Program-made: the position numbers and the translations under genes | From: a virus | Direction: 5' to 3' (one strand) | DNA: 24,870 nt | Virus record (IMG/VR): IMGVR_UViG_3300028590_000085 | Location: 1-24,870 of that record | Part shown: one piece after another, positions 21,428 to 24,172 of the stretch | How positions within the stretch are numbered: the stretch's first letter is position 1 | Layout: each line of letters begins with the position of its first letter | The notes under the pieces: model-generated | The model's database searches: none | Told to the model about the DNA's origin: nothing | The model's input: the letters and a program-made list of their open reading frames with translations, nothing else

Positions 21428-21862
21428 ATGAAAGTACTCGCGTACCCAACAGTCGATGGCGCATTGAGCGTCGTGATCCCAGCACCTGGCTACACGCTTG
21501 CCCAGGCACTCGCCAACCCTGACGTGCAAGCCAGCTTGGATGCCAATCAGTCGGCAGGCCAGCCCGTGCAGATCGAAGACAGCGATCTACCAGTAGACCG
21601 CATGTTCAGAGGCGCTTGGACATTGGACGGCAGCTCCTGCATTGAGTGCCCCGTCAAGAGCAAGGAAGTGGCTCACGACATTCGCAGATCGATGCGCGAA
21701 GCGGAGTTCGCACCGCACGACAAGGTCGTTGCGCTTCAGCTACCTGGCGCAGAGGCTGCAGAAGCAGAGCGCGTAGCCATCCGAGCCAAGTACGCGACGA
21801 TGCAGAGCGACATCGATGCGGCTGAGACGGTGACTGCGCTACGCGGCATCCTTACGAGCTGA
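21428..21862 (+). CDS. Putative tail fibre assembly/phage tail accessory protein
   Basis: A 144-residue protein, last of the forward fibre block, with AGGA eight bases before ATG. The C-terminal half shows DRMFRGAWTLDGSS, then KSKEVAHDIRRSMREAEFAPHDK, and AIRAKYATMQSDIDAAETV. I recall this pattern from small proteins encoded after fibre genes in many phages and annotated as tail assembly or fibre accessory proteins. A chaperone role is inferred from position. It ends 12 bases before the stop of the convergent gene. Confidence 0.7.
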   Translation: MKVLAYPTVDGALSVVIPAPGYTLAQALANPDVQASLDANQSAGQPVQIEDSDLPVDRMFRGAWTLDGSSCIECPVKSKEVAHDIRRSMREAEFAPHDKVVALQLPGAEAAEAERVAIRAKYATMQSDIDAAETVTALRGILTS

Positions 21863-21874
21863 TCGCTTACCAGA

Positions 21875-22411
21875 TCACCTTGGCGGTCGATCTAGATCGT
21901 TGTCAACGATGTAGGCTGTTCCTGCGGGAAGAAGATTCACCACCTCTTCGCTCACACTGTTCCGAACGACTGAGATGAAGTCTCTTGCCTGCAGCTTGTG
22001 TAGGGCGTGATTGAAACGCACAGTTGTCTGTTTGGTCATGCTTTGCAGTATGTCGATGTCCACGTTGTCATCGGCATGTGCCAAGGTTCCAAGCATGAGT
22101 AGTTCCTCTGGGCTGACCTTGTTTAGATGCTCATGCAGGACATGGTCGGCCTCCGCCGAGGCAAGCTCGTAGGAGACAGACTCTTTGAGTCGATGCGCTC
22201 CAACTGACGCCCTCGCTACAAGGAATAGCGTCACGAGAAGAATGGATAGCGGAACCGGGATGGTGAACGCCAACATCGTCCACATGAAGGATGCAGAGGC
22301 GCCGAGCCAGTCAAGTCCAGTGGGCAGATTCGCGCTTGCACGATCCAGAGCCCAGGTGGCAAACGCCAGAACTAGGCTCCCAATCACTGCGGCTTTAACT
22401 TCCTTCGACAT
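21875..22411 (-). CDS. SieB-like two-TM membrane protein with C-terminal winged-helix-like domain
   Basis: A 178-residue protein when begun at MSKEV, which has AAGGAG eight bases before ATG. The upstream ATG of the longer frame would leave this site inside the gene. Hydrophobic segments lie at about 6-22 and 48-67, the second preceded by IPVP. A cytoplasmic-type domain (about 99-172) reads SPEELLMLGTLAHADD and ends LPAGTAYIVDNDLDRPPR. The protein encoded at 23033-23575 has the same layout and ending, so they are paralogues. Architecture resembles superinfection exclusion protein B (SieB) of lambdoid phages; direct homology is not shown. It is transcribed against the late genes from its own promoter. 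Confidence 0.82.
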   Translation of the reverse strand: MSKEVKAAVIGSLVLAFATWALDRASANLPTGLDWLGASASFMWTMLAFTIPVPLSILLVTLFLVARASVGAHRLKESVSYELASAEADHVLHEHLNKVSPEELLMLGTLAHADDNVDIDILQSMTKQTTVRFNHALHKLQARDFISVVRNSVSEEVVNLLPAGTAYIVDNDLDRPPR

Positions 22412-22434
22412 CTTCGAACTCCTTCCGTGCACGA

Positions 22435-22440
22435 ATCGTA
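22435..22440 (-). promoter_or_regulatory. TACGAT, putative -10 of the 21875-22411 gene
   Basis: On the reverse strand TGCTACGAT (an extended -10 form) lies 10 nt before AAGGAG. The same arrangement occurs at 3000-3005 and 23600-23605. No clear -35 is visible. Confidence 0.5.
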
Positions 22441-22524
22441 GCAACTAGTGGCGCTATTTTTCGGGCAGTTAAAGGGCCGCGTTTTTTGTGGTAGGCCCCG
22501 CGCTGACGGTCGTGCTCCAGCCAA

Positions 22525-22604
22525 TAAGTACATCAGAACCCTAGGGATTGGAGGCGCTGTCTCCTTGAATTCGGGTCGAAGCATCCGAACAACAGGGGGA
22601 GACA
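22525..22604 (+). promoter_or_regulatory. Degenerate late element 7 and long leader hairpin of the lysis pair
   Basis: CCAATAAGTAC (core TAAGTAC, 22525-22531) is a one-base variant of the late core. Downstream, TGTCTCC (22558-22564) pairs with GGAGACA (22598-22604), and inside it TTCGG pairs with CCGAA. The GGGGGAGA ribosome-binding sequence of the gene at 22606 is inside the 3' arm, so it may be occluded. Confidence 0.5.
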
Positions 22605-22605
22605 C

Positions 22606-22833
22606 ATGACTTTGAAGCAATGGGGGATGGGACTGCTATCGGCGACCTTGATCGGCGGAGCTGGCTACTTCGGTGTAGCCATCATCGAGACGCGGGAGAA
22701 CGTCGCGGTGATGTTGAGCGTCATGCAGACCTACAACGCAGTGCAGTCCGACCACGAAGCCCGCATCCGTGTTGAAGAGCGTGCAACCCTCGATCACGAA
22801 GGGCGCATCCGTGCGCTGGAGGGTAAGCAATGA
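22606..22833 (+). CDS. Small membrane-anchored coiled-coil protein, lysis-module candidate
   Basis: A 75-residue protein with one hydrophobic segment at about residues 8-28 and a charged, helical C-terminal part (about 30-75) with Glu/Arg/His heptad-like spacing. This fits a small inner-membrane phage protein projecting a coiled coil, as i-spanins do, though it is short for one. Its start lies after the leader hairpin, with GGGGGAG upstream, and its stop overlaps the next start by four bases. The late position beside a holin-like gene supports a lysis role. The exact function is uncertain. Confidence 0.65.
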   Translation: MTLKQWGMGLLSATLIGGAGYFGVAIIETRENVAVMLSVMQTYNAVQSDHEARIRVEERATLDHEGRIRALEGKQ

Positions 22834-23036
22834 AGCTCGTAGACAAGTGGTGGAAGGCGTGGACCGTCTGGGTAGCGGCCACAGGTGTTGCGCTGCCGGA
22901 GATCTTGCAACTGATTGCAGAGAACACCGCGCTGATCCCGTTCCTACCGCCTGAGTGGCAAGGACTCATCAGACTTGCGGCGCTTGTGCTCGTTCTGATC
23001 TTGCGACCGATCAAGCAGTCGAACATGCGGGACTAG
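22830..23036 (+). CDS. Holin-like small membrane protein
   Basis: A 68-residue protein with hydrophobic segments at about residues 11-30 and 46-62, separated by a Pro-containing turn (LIPFLPPEWQG), and with a basic C terminus (RPIKQ). Size, two spans and the WKAWTVWVAATGVALPE start resemble a family of short phage holins. It is coupled to the previous gene by ATGA overlap (GCAATGAAG). Its stop shares CTAG with the stop of the convergent gene. No endolysin gene is present nearby; in T7 the amidase gene is also far from the holin. Confidence 0.7.
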   Translation: MKLVDKWWKAWTVWVAATGVALPEILQLIAENTALIPFLPPEWQGLIRLAALVLVLILRPIKQSNMRD

Positions 23037-23575
23037 AAGGGCGGCTTGTCCAGATCGTTGCTGACAACGTAGTCAGTTCCCTCACTAGTGAGGTAGATGC
23101 TCGAATTGCCCATAGCGCTTGGGGCGTATCCGACCAGCCCCTTGTCTGCTAGCAGCTTGACAGTGTGTTTAAGTCTTATTTCACTCGATGATGTTCTGGC
23201 TCGTGCCAGATCCATTGTCAGCATGTTCCTTGTGGCAGTTGCGAGGGCGTCGAGTAGCACTAGCTCTGGCTCTGTCAGTTCAACCGATTTTTTAGGTTGA
23301 TCTTTTTCGTTTAGTCGTGCCTCTAGTTCGCGTAGGCGGGCGAGCATTCCGTTCGCTTCAAATCCTATGCGGATGAACACGGCACCAACTAGCAGTACGA
23401 CCCATGTGTAGACCGGTCTGGGCGTCCCAAGCCACGTCAGAACGTCTGCGGAAAGCGCTGAAGCCCATTGGAGCCAAGCAGGAACAGCTTCCTTCAACGT
23501 GGCAAGAACCCACAGTACGCCCGCCACCGCCAAGCCTGCTGCGACCTGAATCAAGAACGACTCAACACGCTTCAT
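23033..23575 (-). CDS. SieB-like two-TM membrane protein, paralogue of 21875-22411
   Basis: A 180-residue protein with AAGGAG nine bases before ATG. Hydrophobic segments lie at about 7-26 and 53-71, the second preceded by TPRP; a short charged coiled coil follows (about 74-92), then a winged-helix-like domain (about 98-172) starting LTEPELVLLDALATATRN and ending LTSEGTDYVVSNDLDKPPF. The ending (GTxYxVxNDLDxPP), the PxP before the second span and the L(S/T)xxEL start of the domain are shared with the protein at 21875-22411. It is oriented against the late genes and overlaps the holin-like stop by four bases. A superinfection-exclusion role is inferred. Confidence 0.82.
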   Translation of the reverse strand: MKRVESFLIQVAAGLAVAGVLWVLATLKEAVPAWLQWASALSADVLTWLGTPRPVYTWVVLLVGAVFIRIGFEANGMLARLRELEARLNEKDQPKKSVELTEPELVLLDALATATRNMLTMDLARARTSSSEIRLKHTVKLLADKGLVGYAPSAMGNSSIYLTSEGTDYVVSNDLDKPPF

Positions 23576-23599: not shown

Positions 23600-23605
23600 A
23601 TCGTA
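23600..23605 (-). promoter_or_regulatory. TACGAT, putative -10 of the 23033-23575 gene
   Basis: On the reverse strand GGCTACGAT lies 9 nt before AAGGAG of this gene, matching the arrangement upstream of the two other reverse-strand membrane-protein transcripts. No clear -35 is visible. Confidence 0.5.
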
Positions 23606-23623
23606 GCCAATCCCGAGGCATGA

Positions 23624-23646
23624 GAAAGGGCCCTTGGCGGCCCCTT
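23624..23646 (-). terminator. Probable intrinsic terminator of the reverse gene pair
   Basis: Read on the reverse strand, AAGGGGCC and GGCCCTTT form a GC-rich stem with one bulged base, followed by TTTCTC. It lies after the stop at 23664 and just upstream of the 23575 gene promoter. Confidence 0.5.
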
Positions 23647-23663
23647 CGTGGAGTGAGTACGGG

Positions 23664-23936
23664 TCAGTACTCGGAGGGAAGCAGGATCGTCGTCACGCTG
23701 CGATCCCACTCGGTGATGATCCACACCCGGTGTTCCGGGCCGTGGAGGTTGTACGAGCTAAAGAGCCGCCCGCCTGACCTCAACGCCTCGTCGTTGGTGC
23801 ACTTGTCCTCTTGGTCGAGGTCGCCCCAATCGCACAGCTGATGTCGCAGCAAGAGCAGCGCAGGGTTCACCTGCACCACCTGAAGAAGGGCGATGGCACC
23901 CTTGGTAGCCACCACCCGCCCGAGTTCGAAGTTCAC
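23664..23936 (-). CDS. Small conserved hypothetical protein (plasmid/island type)
   Basis: A 90-residue protein. I choose the GTG that overlaps the preceding stop (GTGA) as start. The frame is open further upstream, but that part overlaps the well-supported 65-residue gene in another phase and is a shadow. The sequence opens (M)NFELGRVVATKGAIALL and continues with LLLRHQLCDWGDLDQEDK, then RLFSSYNL, VWIITEWDRSVTTILLPSEY. I recall this as a widespread small family of plasmids and genomic islands, sometimes mislabelled as a restriction-enzyme subunit. Its function is not known to me. Confidence 0.8.
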   Translation of the reverse strand: MNFELGRVVATKGAIALLQVVQVNPALLLLRHQLCDWGDLDQEDKCTNDEALRSGGRLFSSYNLHGPEHRVWIITEWDRSVTTILLPSEY

Positions 23937-24130
23937 TTGAGGGCTTCGAGTGCGCTCAGGTACTTCGTGATGCGGGCCTGGAACCCGGTGAGTTCGTCCG
24001 TGGTGATCTTGCCCGCCAACACTTGCTTGCGGATTTGCTCGTCGATGCGATCCAGCAGAGGCTTTTGAACCTTGGGTTCTTTGGGAGCCTTGGGGGTCTT
24101 GGCGGCGGGAGTGGAGGTTTGGGTAGCCAT
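23933..24130 (-). CDS. Small basic hypothetical protein, first gene of the reverse pair
   Basis: A 65-residue protein starting at MATQTS, with AAAGGA six bases before ATG. A start eight codons upstream is possible but lacks a good site. Residues about 5-28 are Ala/Pro/Lys-rich and probably unstructured; the rest is helical (LLDRIDEQIRKQVLAGKITTDELTG and following). It overlaps the next gene (GTGA), so the two are made together. A palindrome lies just upstream. I do not recognise a function. Confidence 0.72.
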   Translation of the reverse strand: MATQTSTPAAKTPKAPKEPKVQKPLLDRIDEQIRKQVLAGKITTDELTGFQARITKYLSALEALK

Positions 24131-24152
24131 TTGCATTCCTTTGAAGGGTTGC

Positions 24153-24172
24153 ATCGATCGAGATTGATCGAT
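24153..24172. promoter_or_regulatory. Palindromic operator-like site between divergent genes
   Basis: ATCGATC (24153-24159) and GATCGAT (24166-24172) are perfect inverted 7-mers with a 6-bp spacer, placed 23 bases before the MATQTS start and 28 bases before the divergent frame. A dimeric repressor could control the reverse pair here. Confidence 0.45.

Follow-up and report, generated by a model that had tools for sequence, protein, structure and literature searches.

Two genes of this phage, A and B, encode related membrane proteins and lie on the strand opposite to the lysis region between them, which raises the question of what such a pair does there. The initial annotation took them for SieB-like superinfection exclusion proteins of a prophage. 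The window, by which we mean the whole stretch analyzed, is a 24,870-base IMG/VR virus record. Both genes are real open reading frames preceded by strong ribosome-binding sites:

21875 to 22411, minus strand: gene A, a 178-aa membrane-anchored winged-helix protein; ATG start, GGAAGGAG ribosome-binding site
23033 to 23575, minus strand: gene B, a 180-aa paralogue of A; ATG start, AAGGAG ribosome-binding site

Compared by BLASTP, A and B are homologous over their full length (E of 3e-13, 174 aligned columns) at only 26% identity, which confirms that they are paralogues and that the two copies have diverged strongly. With B as the query against the window, the matches were B itself and A alone (A at an E of 6.5e-13). 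Searches of Pfam, PHROGs, NCBIfam, and PADLOC gave nothing significant for either protein. Four extra members were reached through phages with related terminase and portal genes, and all four are in phage contigs, which agrees with the initial annotation:

L005 12162 to 12677, minus strand: L005a, in genome G002, in tandem with L005b
L005 12717 to 13262, minus strand: L005b, in genome G002, in tandem with L005a
L015 14194 to 14763, minus strand: the single copy in genome G006
L023 1492 to 2040, minus strand: the member in C151 of G005, a phage contig that seems to have been misbinned in a Caldisericota metagenome-assembled genome (MAG)

The family here numbers six homologues in four related phage contigs, the window included, and our statements about it rest on only these six sequences. 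The nearest relative of A is L005a (34% identity over 160 aa). The PADLOC-DB system models matched none of the six members, no member was found in the INPHARED phages or, with one member as the query, in plasmids, and single-protein and profile searches of viral contigs gave no contig beyond those already reached. The family is unnamed and new to the libraries searched; the class of function proposed below, prophage exclusion or defense, is already known. Two contigs of the phage group, L003 and C151 (L024), sit in the Caldisericota MAG G005, with a portal 81% identical to that of the window. Since a search of 20 genomes related to that MAG found no relative of the family, the placement of these contigs is likely to be misbinning.

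Hydropathy agrees with the two transmembrane (TM) segments noted earlier in each protein, and structure prediction, which had been named as a check, gave the two C-terminal domains the same winged-helix fold:

22346 to 22402, minus strand: TM segment 1 of A (aa 4 to 22), by hydropathy
22217 to 22273, minus strand: TM segment 2 of A (aa 47 to 65), with PVP, by hydropathy
21878 to 22120, minus strand: predicted MarR-type winged-helix domain of A (aa 98 to 178), ending in GTAYIVDNDLDRPPR; AlphaFold2 pLDDT mostly 84 to 91, PDB MarR-family Z up to 12.9
23501 to 23557, minus strand: TM segment 1 of B (aa 7 to 25), by hydropathy
23360 to 23416, minus strand: TM segment 2 of B (aa 54 to 72), preceded by PRP, by hydropathy
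23036 to 23284, minus strand: predicted MarR-type winged-helix domain of B (aa 98 to 180), ending in GTDYVVSNDLDKPPF; AlphaFold2 pLDDT mostly 80 to 90, PDB MarR-family Z up to 13.4, Foldseek E of 1.4e-4

In the AlphaFold2 models the C-terminal domains of A and B have an identical order of winged-helix elements (pLDDT mostly 80 to 91), and the TM part is of low confidence (pLDDT of 53 to 72). The solved structures that match these domains are mainly MarR-family regulators, with a Z of about 13 over about 80 residues, and the matches in both the PDB and BFVD searches are confined to the winged helix. A sequence profile of the six members also ranked a MarR-family chain first in the PDB, but at an E of just 0.086, and the Pfam MarR-type HMMs did not match the family at E ≤ 10. 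Unlike MarR regulators, A and B have a TM hairpin upstream of the winged helix: in the monomer models, long TM-containing helices precede this domain, and the protein stops shortly beyond the single helix next to the wing on its C-terminal side. Because the N terminus has basic residues, as does the stretch following TM segment 2 in most members, the likely topology is a two-TM hairpin in the inner membrane with both termini inside. The C-terminal domains of A and B are acidic (pI of about 5, net charge of −3 to −4); those of the L015 and L023 members have net charges of +1 to +3.

Eleven residues are invariant in all six members (in L023 numbering, V11, L24, P32, W34, E109, L116, L146, G169, Y172, L178, and D179). 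The shared ending GTxY(I/V)VxNDLD(R/K)PP is found in both A and B. Across the family, however, it reduces to G-x2-Y-x3-[N/H]-x-LD, in which the LD is invariant and the PP is not conserved. Likewise, the PxP before TM segment 2 is present in A and B but is not a family trait, the relatives having a single proline, mostly in VPR or FPR; PxP and the terminal PP are thus particular to A and B. The initial annotation found no explanation for the NDLDxPP tail. The models form the tail from the post-wing helix (aa 162 to 170 in A, aa 164 to 172 in B) and an eight-residue extension, so that most of it is already accounted for: its helical part is the last helix of the winged-helix domain, for which a function of its own is unneeded.

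The two parts of the protein may also have separate histories in one member. The N-terminal domain of L005b resembles those of L023 and L015 and its C-terminal domain those of L005a and A (column bootstrap of 1.0 versus 0.004). Tree tests did not reject a single history (p-AU of 0.25 and 0.38), and we regard a mosaic origin of L005b as suggestive.

The resemblance to SieB is one of architecture. SieB of P22 and of lambda, like A and B, is about 180 to 190 aa long and has two N-terminal TM segments followed by a cytoplasmic C-terminal domain, a general arrangement that is not diagnostic. The HMM search named in the initial annotation went against the SieB-like identity: PF14163 matches SieB of P22 (4e-29) and of lambda (1e-29) but not A, B, L005a, L005b, or L015 at E ≤ 10, and it matches nothing in the whole window. 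In profile-profile comparisons (hhalign), in which the SieB side consisted of one or two sequences only, the probability was 0.1 to 0.2%. The C-terminal domain of A and B is predicted to be a MarR-type winged helix, SieB being set apart here by means other than a comparison of folds. SieB is expressed from the prophage (PMC10883804). Like A and B, its gene is antisense, within an operon, and sieB of P22 has its own annotated promoter; unlike sieB, which belongs to the early leftward operon, the genes of this family are in the late, lysis, or integrase region.

Two other known proteins, PdpSau of Staphylococcus aureus prophages and lactococcal AbiP, resemble the predicted A and B in having an N-terminal membrane anchor and, in the cytoplasm, a domain whose fold is linked to nucleic acid binding. 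PdpSau, which causes abortive infection and is encoded next to the lysis genes of prophages, is membrane anchored and has a cytoplasmic domain (PMC10127798). Its likeness to A and B is one of architecture, not of sequence comparison, and it differs in having one TM segment and an OB-like fold instead of two TM segments and a winged helix, and a positive C terminus instead of an acidic domain.

All six family genes are antisense to late genes and near tail, lysis, or integrase genes. In the window the neighborhood is as follows:

21428 to 21862, plus strand: last gene of the tail region, followed by A
22606 to 22833, plus strand: lysis-region gene for a 75-aa protein with one TM segment, transcribed divergently from A; no significant family match
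22830 to 23036, plus strand: holin-like protein (DUF7940), convergent with B; PF25612 at 3.3e-10, PHROG 1356 (holin) at 1.9e-7
23664 to 23930, minus strand: small gene (about 88 aa) upstream of B, 59% identical to the C151 gene in the same (syntenic) place

A is divergent from the lysis genes across a gap of 194 nt, and B is convergent with the holin gene, the stop codons overlapping by 4 bases. What had been called a lysis pair is a holin in its second gene, according to PF25612 and PHROG 1356, but its first gene lacks a significant match. That A and B bracket this pair on the opposite strand is true of the window but is not a conserved arrangement. In G002 both copies are on the same side, between the tail and lysis genes, with L005b divergent from the latter; in G006 the single copy is between the tail genes and a tyrosine integrase gene, with a tRNA-Arg gene near the contig end; and in C151 the copy is beyond the holin, with an extra gene in between.

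Several features of this region are recorded for their own sake. The gene at 21428 to 21862 belongs to a conserved set that closes the tail region and encodes proteins of 137 to 144 aa (about 50% identity), with counterparts at L005 11738 to 12151 and L015 13717 to 14133, and in these three contigs the accessory genes begin after it. The small minus-strand genes upstream of B (23664 to 23930 and 23933 to 24154) are kept as a pair in C151 and G002, and the first of them is also in G006; in G002 and G006 they are placed elsewhere in the genome. Pfam gave no match for the 73-aa product of the second or for the C151 copy of the first. The tail-lysis gap of C151, the closest relative, holds a gene for a fatty acid desaturase-like protein (PF00487, 8e-9) at L024 16511 to 17227 on the plus strand.

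A standard promoter scan found nothing, and it was only in a comparison of the upstream regions that a promoter-like motif emerged:

22435 to 22444, minus strand: promoter-like extended −10 motif of A, TTGCTACGAT, 23 nt before the ATG
23600 to 23609, minus strand: promoter-like extended −10 motif of B, TGGCTACGAT, 24 nt before the ATG
23624 to 23647, minus strand: hairpin resembling a terminator, located between B and the minus-strand genes upstream of it; −17.7 kcal/mol, z of −2.75

The motif, T[TG]GNTAC[GC]AT, has the extended −10 promoter form TGnTAnnAT, with TG replaced by GG in B, and occurs 22 to 24 nt before the ATG of five of the six family genes. The one without it is L005a, the second gene of the tandem pair, 39 bases behind L005b. 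Among 378 starts preceded by ribosome-binding sites in four genomes, these five alone have the motif at 21 to 25 nt, a count that is descriptive because the motif was chosen after these sequences had been seen. Such agreement in position across otherwise unlike DNA would be hard to get by chance, and an own promoter for these genes is well supported as a prediction. The predicted hairpin is conserved before the C151 counterpart, where it has a compensating change (−14.6 kcal/mol, z of −3.12), and it sets B and that counterpart apart from their upstream genes. There was no support for a terminator adjoining A and no convincing operator palindrome in the upstream regions. Loci with their own promoters that are antisense to lytic genes are characteristic of prophage accessory genes, or morons (PMC7067206); judged by predicted motif and gene order, A and B are loci of this kind.

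Whether the phage is in fact a prophage bears on this comparison. Because of its portal (PF12236, E of 2e-107), its gp16-like internal virion protein, and its terminase, we place the window near Yersinia phage YeP5 (40% portal identity) and Alcaligenes phage Piluca, which are temperate podoviruses with a T7-like head-tail connector. No integrase was identified in the window contig, and the prophage status claimed for it holds for the lineage, through the integrases of its relatives, but not for the window on its own. Two lineages that bear family members have integrases: G002 a serine integrase and G006 a tyrosine integrase, the latter beside the family copy. A more distant relative, G028, is flanked by open reading frames that look like host genes and has at its end a gene resembling those of serine integrases (judged by reading rather than by HMM); our search of it found no family member, though lysis-region genes are present. 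Since integrases occur in G002 and G006, and G028 lies between host-like open reading frames and has no member that we could find, the lineage is, on gene content, temperate and the A/B family genes accessory. As with morons, their presence varies among related phages: none was found in G028, G006 and C151 have one copy each, and the window (G000) and G002 have two.

The members also diverge faster than the genes around them. Between the window and C151, several tail and internal virion proteins are 74 to 79% identical, the holins 56%, and the products of the small gene adjoining B (orf88) 59%; some virion proteins are less alike too (capsid, 34%; scaffold, 44%). Where the window has B, the copy in C151 gives no BLAST match to that protein and is 24% identical to A. 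The contrast is strongest against the immediate neighbors, and in these comparisons the A/B family genes have diverged, or been replaced, at a much higher rate than those neighbors.

This layout, comprising a predicted own promoter, an antisense position in late regions, proximity to lysis or integrase genes, variable presence, and extreme divergence, fits prophage exclusion or defense genes. Our best reading, by analogy with SieB, PdpSau, and AbiP, is that A and B encode membrane-anchored exclusion or abortive-infection proteins, that is, that they are accessory genes with which a temperate podovirus protects its lysogen; we give this a probability of about 0.5. It is favored because antisense loci with their own promoters are typical of accessory genes and because anti-phage genes are concentrated in hotspots in the prophages of many species (PMC9122126). 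Transcription of each gene would start at its own promoter, probably during lysogeny, and run antisense to the late genes. The hairpin in the inner membrane, with both ends inside, would hold the winged helix at the cytoplasmic face, where it might sense a component of an incoming phage, protein or nucleic acid; because the domains are acidic, a protein trigger seems at least as likely as DNA. The membrane part could then block entry or damage the membrane and so abort the infection. Upon induction, transcription of the late genes would pass through A and B in the antisense direction, lower their expression, and so limit self-exclusion. An analogy for such silencing is the tha/ith pair of phage 80alpha, prophage immunity genes antisense to other phage genes, in which the states of lysogeny and lysis are mutually exclusive (PMC11087260); there, however, it is the inhibitor gene that is antisense, and here it is the candidate exclusion genes. 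A further conjecture, to which we give little credence, is that A and B represent an undescribed exclusion family in which membrane hairpins and winged-helix sensors of infecting phage are exchangeable modules and paralogues cover different phages; the putative mosaic L005b lends it suggestive but not decisive support.

Several features count against exclusion: winged helices usually bind DNA, which makes a regulatory role possible, and the acidic domains are unlike the positive C terminus of PdpSau. The absence of the family from the libraries searched, the low confidence of the modeled TM part, the small number of sequences (six), and the lack of an identified integrase in the window contig also weigh on that side. 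A and B might regulate transcription while tethered to the membrane, as CadC and ToxR do, the hairpin sensing membrane state or infection and the winged helix binding promoters of the prophage itself or of the host. The MarR-type fold of both proteins and the divergence of A, and likewise of L005b, from the lysis genes would suit such regulators. Yet the acidity of the domains and the lack of a convincing upstream operator speak against this, two paralogues per phage and none in a sister prophage would be odd for a regulator, and the position relative to the lysis genes varies, so we consider regulation rather unlikely.

The same variation in position disfavors a role in lysis, in which these membrane proteins beside the holin would postpone lysis or adjust its timing, either through protein contact or through convergent transcription. 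The tail-to-tail overlap of B with the holin gene and the divergent orientation of A invite that idea, but the G006 copy is beside an integrase gene, the C151 copy is separated from the holin by an extra gene, G028 has lysis-region genes and no copy that was found, and the predicted own promoter antisense to late genes also counts against it; we think a lysis role quite improbable. The moron layout by itself gives no function (PMC7067206), and the genes could instead serve lysogenic conversion with a role in host fitness apart from phage exclusion, for example, in envelope stress. Strong divergence and paralogy next to conserved neighbors favor conflict, as does a known defense pair in the same lineage, and a fitness role is in our view unlikely. 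That pair is Pycsar, found antisense to late genes in G006 (IMGVR_UViG_3300028590_000063):

L026 671 to 1363, minus strand: PycC, Pycsar cyclase (1.7e-101)
L026 1374 to 1856, minus strand: PycTM, Pycsar effector (PF18967)

The temperate podovirus group that has the A/B family thus also carries Pycsar. Prophage accessory genes are a main source of new anti-phage systems and are hard to spot from sequence alone; the exclusion reading of A and B concerns a small unnamed family whose architecture is defined, whose promoter tag is conserved, and of which several diverged members could be cloned for a direct test.

The window encodes a third minus-strand membrane protein (1580 to 2635, 351 aa). It contains two hydrophobic segments and probably a coiled coil, and its C-terminal stretch gives a weak hint of a winged helix (HTH_45, E of 0.16). 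The gene is without the promoter motif seen at A and B, has no tblastn match in the INPHARED phages, and matches weakly PHROGs 22645, 4780, and 13369, all of unknown function. G002 carries tRNA-Ser (TGA) and tRNA-Ala (TGC) genes on the minus strand at L019 10468 to 10628.
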